From Planctomycetaceae bacterium (GTDB lineage Bacteria > Planctomycetota > Planctomycetia > Planctomycetales > Planctomycetaceae): a stretch of 38,528 nt of DNA. The position numbers and the translations under genes were made by a program. The notes below the pieces were generated by a model that ran no database searches, had not been told where the DNA came from, and saw only the letters and a list, made by a program, of their open reading frames with translations. The stretch lies in NCBI GenBank assembly GCA_009691905.1, contig SIAF01000005.1:1-38528 (forward strand). The letters are read 5' to 3'. This document shows, piece after piece, positions 33,747 to 34,849 of this stretch. Each line of letters starts with the position of its first letter. Position 1 is the first letter of the stretch.

Positions 33747-33971
33747 TCAGTTTGATTCAGACTTGCCATCTGGAAACCGGCCGGGAGGGTTGACGGGCAA
33801 TGGACGGGTCAGCCGGTAAGCCACGAAGAAGAGTATGGCATAAGCTGCGAATCCGCTGAGCCAATCTTCAACTGGCATCCTGCCGCCGGAGAACTCGACG
33901 ACTGCGCTGCACAGCAGCATTCCGAGGCTAGCGAAGCACAGGATCAGACTAATGCGACTGACGATTCCCAT
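33747..33971 (-). CDS. Small hypothetical membrane protein
   Basis: This 74-residue protein has two hydrophobic helices (RISLILCFASLGMLLCSAVV and WLSGFAAYAILFFVAYRL) joined by a short charged loop, and a polar C-terminus. Its composition is protein-like and it fits between the DUF1501 gene and the kinase-like gene without overlap. No ribosome binding site is clear and no family is recognised. Confidence 0.5.
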   Translation of the reverse strand: MGIVSRISLILCFASLGMLLCSAVVEFSGGRMPVEDWLSGFAAYAILFFVAYRLTRPLPVNPPGRFPDGKSESN

Positions 33972-34018: not shown

Positions 34019-34519
34019 CTACGGCAATTCCGGTTCAGGAGCGAAACGAATGTTGTTGGCATTCACGTCACTGAGATAGATGCCGAGCGATCTCAACTCC
34101 GAAAGCAGACTCTTGACAACAGGCCATCGATTTTCGAATGTTTCCGCCCAGGTTTCTTCTTGCTCAATCCTTTGTTCCCGGTCATACTTCGCGAGAGGAT
34201 TGAAATCGACTCCGGCCGATGCAAAATCGACGATAAACGGCGGAGTCACGAACTCCATTTCGATGACCATCAGCTCATCGTGATGCCCAATAAGGCGCGG
34301 GACGTAAAATCCGCAGAGTTGCCCGATATCCTTTTCTTTTAGTCTCAGGTAGACCGCGAGTTCTTTTCGATAAAGGTTTTCGAATCTCAGCGCTTTTACG
34401 GCTGTGCCGGAGTGTGTGGCCAAAACGATGCCATCCTGGCCGAACCCGATGGTATCGCCAAGCTTCAAGCCCCGCCGTTTTGCGTATTCAGTGGCCCGTG
34501 ATATTCCATCGACATCCAT
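34019..34519 (-). CDS. Small kinase-like protein lacking the DFG segment
   Basis: This 166-residue protein looks like a minimal protein-kinase fold. A Gly-rich loop IGFGQDGIVLAT is at 24-35, then TAVKALRF with Lys42, a Glu in YRKELAVYLRL (Glu53), the hinge-like LMVIEMEFVTPP (83-94), and a catalytic-loop-like YLSDVNANNIRF with Asp151 and Asn156 spaced as in HxDxxxxN. The protein ends ten residues later, so the metal-binding DFG motif and the C-lobe after it are missing. It may be a degenerate kinase or a different nucleotide-binding protein. Its ATG is back to back with that of the next gene (CATATG), and no ribosome binding site precedes it. Confidence 0.7.
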   Translation of the reverse strand: MDVDGISRATEYAKRRGLKLGDTIGFGQDGIVLATHSGTAVKALRFENLYRKELAVYLRLKEKDIGQLCGFYVPRLIGHHDELMVIEMEFVTPPFIVDFASAGVDFNPLAKYDREQRIEQEETWAETFENRWPVVKSLLSELRSLGIYLSDVNANNIRFAPEPELP

Positions 34520-34849
34520 ATGCAGTGTGAACCGATTCAGGAACGATATTCGGCCGAAGTACGGCTGGAGTTGATTGCGGCCGGTCAGGTATTCGACTTA
34601 GCCAAGTCTGGTCCGGGGTATGCCTATTTGAGGAATCCTGCGGAAATACCTGCCGGGCACGCCGTTTTTGTAATGACAATTGACGGCCGCAGGCACAAAT
34701 GGGACGTCCGATTGACGCGGGATGTCGTACCAATCGGCGAAAAGATTGAATTTCAAGTCATTTCCGGCCCTGAATCAGACAAGCCGATTGAATTCGAAGC
34801 GCCAAACGTCAAGCAACTCTTGCTGTTCCCCGATTGTAAACCGGCTTGA
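34520..34849 (+). CDS. Hypothetical 109-residue protein divergent from the kinase-like gene
   Basis: This protein opens MQCEPIQERYSAEVRLELIA and is rich in beta strands (IPAGHAVFVMTIDGRRHKWD, then VRLTRDVVPIGEKIEFQVIS). I recall conserved small planctomycete proteins with a similar start, but cannot name a domain. The ATG at 34520 shares the CATATG with the divergent kinase-like gene, so no space remains for a promoter or ribosome binding site between the two starts. A conserved hypothetical protein is the safest call. Confidence 0.65.
   Translation: MQCEPIQERYSAEVRLELIAAGQVFDLAKSGPGYAYLRNPAEIPAGHAVFVMTIDGRRHKWDVRLTRDVVPIGEKIEFQVISGPESDKPIEFEAPNVKQLLLFPDCKPA

Follow-up and report, generated by a model that had tools for sequence, protein, structure and literature searches.

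The subject of this work is a divergent gene pair in a 38,528-nucleotide stretch of DNA from a Planctomycetaceae bacterium (contig SIAF01000005.1, positions 1 to 38,528; hereafter the window). A kinase-like gene, K (166 aa, 34519..34019, minus strand), and its partner gene, S (109 aa, 34520..34849, plus strand), begin on abutting ATGs within one CATATG, as read from the sequence and from the list of open reading frames (ORFs). Judged by comparison with its relatives, this abutment is a variant of a conserved two-gene family, and neither an annotation error nor a product of chance. We consider it fairly probable that K/S is a co-inherited module in which each gene carries the initiation signals of the other, and that the pair is antisense-coupled and either toxin/partner-like or regulatory. 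The features of the window pair are as follows.

34019..34519, minus strand: K, a 166-aa kinase-like protein of the PADLOC ST_Kinase family; it ends past the catalytic loop, and K42, E53, D151 and N156 are invariant in the 33-row alignment A3
34520..34849, plus strand: S, a 109-aa partner with a PilZ-like β-barrel core at residues ~11–90 in the predicted structure
34517..34522, no strand: CATATG, the abutting K and S start codons; most relatives instead have CATG, where the two codons share 2 bp
34523..34560, plus strand: first S codons, which are the K upstream region; relatives have the K Shine–Dalgarno (SD) motif here, e.g., CCCTCC in locus L024
34480..34516, minus strand: first K codons, which are the S upstream region; relatives have the S SD motif here, e.g., GGAGGAG in locus L015

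Overlapping start codons in a family of gene pairs

At the window junction (GACATCCATATGCAGTGTG), the K ATG occupies 34517-34519 on the minus strand and the S ATG 34520-34522 on the plus strand, with 0 bases between them. The initial annotation had joined the two starts in CATATG within 34019-34849, and both the motif and the coordinates were exact. Its remark that no room was left between the genes for a promoter or a ribosome-binding site also holds; the signals must therefore lie inside the partner. Up to 140 nt upstream at the window locus (L001), no other in-frame ATG, GTG or TTG was found for K or S.

K and S profiles were placed on all fetched loci to find head-to-head pairs. There were 103 distinct pairs, nearly all from Planctomycetota. 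The ATGs overlapped in CATG in 86 of them: 83 of 100 by script, plus L189, L203 and L214, whose S N-termini were weak and whose starts were read by eye. The 100 pairs were distinct by the 80-nt core at the S anchor, and related genomes remain among them. The head-to-head layout, which the initial annotation had proposed to check in other planctomycetes, is thus kept. In 92 of the 100 pairs, the two frames were in the phase that an overlap of the starts requires. CATATG occurred in the window, L150 and L196, and CATTATG in L152; the window CATATG looks like CATG with one AT duplication. A K tree was built from the 92 rows in which K and S were both long enough; at least 14 changes were required to place the 16 rows lacking CATG, indicating that departures from CATG are scattered tips. 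Controls were taken from 800 kb of five genomes of the order, with genes called by a simple codon-usage model. None of the 75 divergent control pairs had starts within 10 nt, and none had CATG; the smallest gap was 23 and the median 339.

Searches for K detected it in 47 of the 170 genomes from the order, in 78 of 397 from the class sample and in 13 of 392 from the phylum sample. The source genome carries a second head-to-head K/S pair, with CATG, on another contig (G000:C307, L002) and a third K copy at a contig edge (G000:C54). An alignment-based scan of genome_contigs found 44 loci, mostly in Planctomycetota. Carriers included Schlesneria, Thalassoglobus neptunius KOR42, Planctomycetales ZRK34, Phycisphaerales metagenome-assembled genomes (MAGs) and one MAG labelled Chthoniobacter. 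With the window protein alone as query, the scan of genome_contigs returned 0 relatives. Mean identity among family members was 39% for K and 28% for S. Alignments A1 and A2 comprised 37 and 38 of the 49 pairs known when they were made. The window was included in both A3, with 32 of the 44 loci from genome_contigs, and A4, with 38 of the 39 S references.

Divergent overlaps are strongly under-represented in prokaryotes; within them, SD sequences and start codons would be constrained, and reciprocal antisense is possible (PMC2174442, accessible part). The pairs described there resemble K/S in their head-to-head overlap and in having initiation signals inside the partner, but that part of the source contains no conserved overlapping-start family, unlike K/S. 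Our literature search, in which sources were covered in part, found no paper on the K/S pair or on a conserved divergent family with overlapping starts.

Initiation signals within the partner gene

When CATG pairs were aligned at their starts, two base biases appeared. S starts were preceded by an excess of G at ~7-12 nt, and K starts by an excess of C at ~8-10 nt, equivalent to G on the K strand. The core SD motif was defined as GGAG, GAGG or AGGA at 4-12 nt from the ATG, and synonymous recoding of the partner served as the null. Inside K, a core SD preceded S in 27 of the 83 CATG pairs, whereas the null gave 12.6 ± 3.0 and 0 of 500 recodings reached the observed count. Inside S, a core SD preceded K in 19 of the 83, with a null of 11.6 ± 2.9 and 5 of 500 recodings reaching it. 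A wider set of SD motifs was present on both sides in 13 pairs. This enrichment, at 5-12 nt before both starts, implied leaders on the messages of many pairs. RNA folding of four 121-nt junction stretches, two from the window and two from L165, gave no unusual hairpin (z of 0.97, 0.90, 1.30 and -1.14).

The initial annotation had suggested leaderless messages. Both mRNAs would then begin at the ATG, with the -10 element inside the partner and no antisense overlap. Leaderless/RPS1-like signals were reported in Planctomycetes, for one genome, in the accessible part of PMC5397173. Consistent with this, the window pair has no core SD motif before K or S, and 33 of the 83 CATG pairs lacked even the wider set on both sides. 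However, SD enrichment before both starts calls for leaders, and AT content at -22 to -10 was raised only modestly (0.44-0.53). For the family, leaderless initiation appears improbable; it is not needed where an SD is present and is possible for the window pair.

Bidirectional promoters resemble the K/S layout in that two opposite transcripts arise from one short DNA stretch; their start sites, usually 18 bp apart, flank the promoter (PMC10268837, accessible part). If a promoter were centered on CATG, its RNAs would begin downstream of the start codons, and K and S would therefore need two facing promoters, one within each gene. A single promoter shared between K and S was ruled out, as the start codons abut or overlap with 0 sequence between them.

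The geometry may also be a relic of historical packing. A compact pair would have been locked long ago by its overlap, with no regulatory use, and CATG would stay because both starts must. Such an overlap protects itself, because a mutation in the shared AT would harm both starts at once, and the compact K/S unit was found in unrelated genomic places. However, K and S both vary among pairs in N-terminus length, measured from the conserved core to the ATG, which indicates that starts could drift, yet the CATG departures are scattered tips. SD motifs were also enriched beyond what the amino-acid sequence gives. We hold packing to be an unlikely explanation.

Predicted proteins, co-inheritance and decay

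K residues 1-159 matched the PADLOC profile PDLC01137 (ST_Kinase) over positions 1-162 of 162 (E of 1.5e-34). All 33 A3 members matched this 162-position profile, which represents the same protein family as K. K42, E53, D151 and N156, invariant across the 33 rows, are presumably the conserved Lys, the C-helix Glu, the catalytic Asp and the Asn of kinases. An invariant D98-F99 sits before the catalytic loop. The DFG-type metal-binding Asp and the remaining C-lobe after the loop are absent, and K proteins end a few to ~25 residues beyond it. In Pfam, window K matched 0 families, with neither Pkinase nor APH above the gathering score; APH matched 3 of the 33 members (best E of 8e-4). The best sequence relative in the PDB reached only E of 0.02.

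The predicted K model had a mean pLDDT (predicted local distance difference test) of 96.4. Its VIA matches were borderline: RIO in the pre-40S particle (6zxe_z) at Z 8.7, 4.1 Å over 123 residues, and APH(2'')-IVa (4dfu_A) at Z 8.4, 3.0 Å over 124, with RIO and APH(2'') kinases spanning Z 8.7-8.0. Foldseek matched the small archaeal RNA kinase Ark1 (8yv5, 172 residues; E of 8.9e-4). The K model resembles these kinases in fold, but it stops after the catalytic loop with no DFG-like segment, and identities were 8-22%. In the predicted model, K is a kinase-like fold truncated just past the catalytic loop.

Window S had no family match in Pfam, NCBIfam or PADLOC, and no sequence relative above noise in the PDB. 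Its predicted model has a confident core forming a six-stranded barrel. The top VIA matches were PilZ domains at borderline scores (BcsA, Z 8.0, 2.6 Å over 71 residues; MapZ, 7.3; Alg44, 6.3), and Foldseek gave E of 0.17 or worse. RxxxR and D/NxSxxG are the ligand motifs of PilZ domains. Both were absent from the S consensus in the 39-row and 38-row alignments, and Pfam PilZ matched 0 of 39 S members. As modeled, S may resemble the PilZ barrel in fold but differs from PilZ domains in lacking their motifs and Pfam match. Genome G060 contains several stand-alone S paralogues (L085, L086, L087 and L091) with no K. The start context CCATGACGAC is common to L086, L091 and L085, which is an edge copy, and in L086 and L091 the start is preceded by AAAGGATTCG, a conventional leader without K.

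The ratio of nonsynonymous to synonymous substitution rates (dN/dS) was 0.05-0.44 for both K and S wherever dS could be calculated, with 25 close pairs listed. By this measure, both are real genes under purifying selection. K and S distances were correlated (Mantel r of 0.54; 0 of 1000 permutations reached it), indicating that the two genes travel together.

S was intact and K broken or a remnant at 18 unique loci, a count that leaves out 7 S genes without any K and 2 at contig edges. The converse, an intact K lacking S, was clear once, in L025/L142, where K has its own GGAGGGGG leader. The latter count excludes L093 (contig edge) and the second L158 pair (no ATG at S, uncertain start). Six loci had been flagged as S broken with K intact. 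In L066 and L067 the flag came from an additional short S fragment next to an intact copy, S proved intact on inspection in L189, L203 and L214, and the sixth was the second L158 pair. Decayed K genes kept their N-terminal residues before S: 1-17 in L044, 1-18 in L083, 1-35 in L061, 1-38 in L079 and 1-44 in L082. In L078 the remnant holds residues 1-21 and then jumps to 145-161. All six loci kept CATG despite the decay of K. From the loss pattern and the genomic context, we infer that K may be toxin-like and S its restraining partner.

The initial annotation had reasoned that each promoter lies inside the other gene or one start is wrong. The placement of initiation signals inside the partner is supported: SD motifs are enriched there, and loci with a dead K keep its first 17-44 codons. 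A misplaced start codon, or an ORF that is not a gene, would agree with a survey in which all divergent overlaps >60 bp were judged misannotations and the Rhodopirellula baltica genome had the most (PMC2478687, accessible part). However, both proteins are under purifying selection, the models are good, the start phase is conserved, and the overlap here is 2 bp and not long. We regard misannotation as extremely improbable.

Neighboring cas genes and the proposed coupling

PADLOC describes ST_Kinase as a kinase with a putative adaptation module beside I-C systems in Rhodopirellula. That description covers the kinase only and mentions neither the partner, the start overlap nor the occurrence away from cas loci; PADLOC has no model for S. 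By profile or tblastn, cas genes were found near K/S or S in 16 loci, which were picked because cas had already been seen. S was upstream of the cas genes and on the same strand in 14 of the 16, several times directly before Cas3g or Csb1. L299 has its cas1 on the K side, and the K of L302 is oriented toward cas1. A search for Cas1 and Csb1 covered 80 of the 92 K-bearing genomes, leaving out 12 with a fragmentary K. Eight K/S modules were ≤15 kb from a match on the same contig (G064, G083, G105, G130, G133, G141:C37, G298 and G317), with ~0.3 expected by chance on our own estimate. The cas label needed at least 10 changes on the K tree, implying that the link between K/S and cas arose or was lost repeatedly. 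By sequence matches, the pairs of some relatives sit by type I-G or other cas genes. There the adaptation neighbor of the ST_Kinase description is present; in the window genome, 93.7% complete, neither Cas1 nor Csb1 gave a match.

K and S may thus be a CRISPR-associated regulatory or accessory pair that tunes cas expression or adaptation, with copies away from cas being leftovers or independent. The PADLOC description, the placement of S ahead of cas genes and the repeated changes of the cas label agree with this. In contrast, only eight modules lie so close to Cas1 or Csb1 in the 80 genomes, although chance would give only ~0.3, and the window genome has neither. This explanation appears rather unlikely.

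Several observations in these neighborhoods are recorded here. L152 (2-4148) has two K copies beside a type I-G Cas3. L158 (1-4605) has two tandem K/S modules, each adjoining a Cas3g piece. In L305 (5023-5769, G090), the S domain is part of a 249-aa ORF that immediately precedes cas3g, csb1 and cas1, and K is missing. In a BLAST comparison of neighbors at 99 loci, only small groups recurred besides K/S, with ≤6 loci each. There was also one large group, in which a Cas3 ORF was linked with frames overlapping S; cas genes were later found by profile and tblastn. No phage carriage was found in viral_contigs, searched with one short pattern only, and no plasmid carriage in plasmids with the L002 K copy as query.

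In one genus, a syntenic spacer holds K/S in G065-G067 and another small gene in G064. The G064 spacer (L283, G064:C984) has a ~125-residue ORF, which looks to us like a GxxExxY protein, and two copies of a ~200-bp repeat in place of K/S. A ~110-bp palindromic repeat at ~4775-4885 of L165 (G066:C205) has dozens of copies in G065, G066 and G067 but is almost absent from G064 and G068, and homology with G064 stops at the repeat edge. In the window, a 74-aa hydrophobic ORF (33747-33971, minus strand) lies downstream of K; its DUF5317 match is sub-threshold (E of 0.011).

Our preferred explanation remains a co-inherited module with mutually embedded signals. The S ribosome-binding site, and probably its promoter, would lie within the first K codons, and those of K within the first S codons. 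The geometry of the pair predicts a 5' antisense overlap: both mRNAs would have leaders, and their 5' ends would then be complementary over a few tens of nucleotides spanning both start codons. The K and S promoters would face each other. Making one message would interfere with the other in transcription, translation or both, tying the K:S ratio. The likeliest use would be that a potentially harmful K is not made without S, or that the cell switches between K and S, in a defence-linked context. The linked toggle of the initial annotation is likewise only a candidate. In the window, where the starts are separated and no SD is visible, the last step may differ.

A number of results weigh against this explanation, including the lack of SD motifs in the window pair and on both sides of the 33 CATG pairs described above. 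In 17 of the 103 pairs, CATG is absent. Sigma-70-like scores (E. coli matrix) were only slightly raised for an S promoter inside K (3 of 200 recodings reached them), and for a K promoter inside S they were below the null (200 of 200); the promoters inside the partners are hence only putative. K is ~1.8 times as long as S, so an excess of K decay is partly expected and the asymmetry is only suggestive. The binomial probability of that excess was ~1% with kinship ignored, and MAG errors also contribute to it. S also occurs without K. Most K/S modules are not beside cas genes, and no Cas1 or Csb1 match was found in the window genome (93.7% complete).

A bolder version is a defence or addiction module, which we put forward tentatively and consider quite unlikely. 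In it, a toxin-like kinase would be held by a restraining partner, the mutually antisense 5' ends would hide ribosome-binding sites and starts, CATG would be selected across the phylum, and the module would have joined the heads of CRISPR-Cas operons repeatedly, serving there as guard or switch. It recalls the CreTA guards of CRISPR-Cas, which, in the accessible part of the sources, are likewise a small two-part module tied to CRISPR-Cas with one part a toxin. CreTA is made of RNA, and its repression depends on the CRISPR effector and a CRISPR-like guide, whereas K/S consists of two proteins of which K is only putatively toxin-like.

Divergent overlaps are the rarest kind of overlap in prokaryotes, as far as the accessible literature goes, and K/S keeps its overlapping starts despite large protein divergence. 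K/S is thus a clean natural system in which reciprocal antisense control at start codons could be tested. S is the overlooked partner of a kinase already named in surveys of CRISPR neighborhoods.
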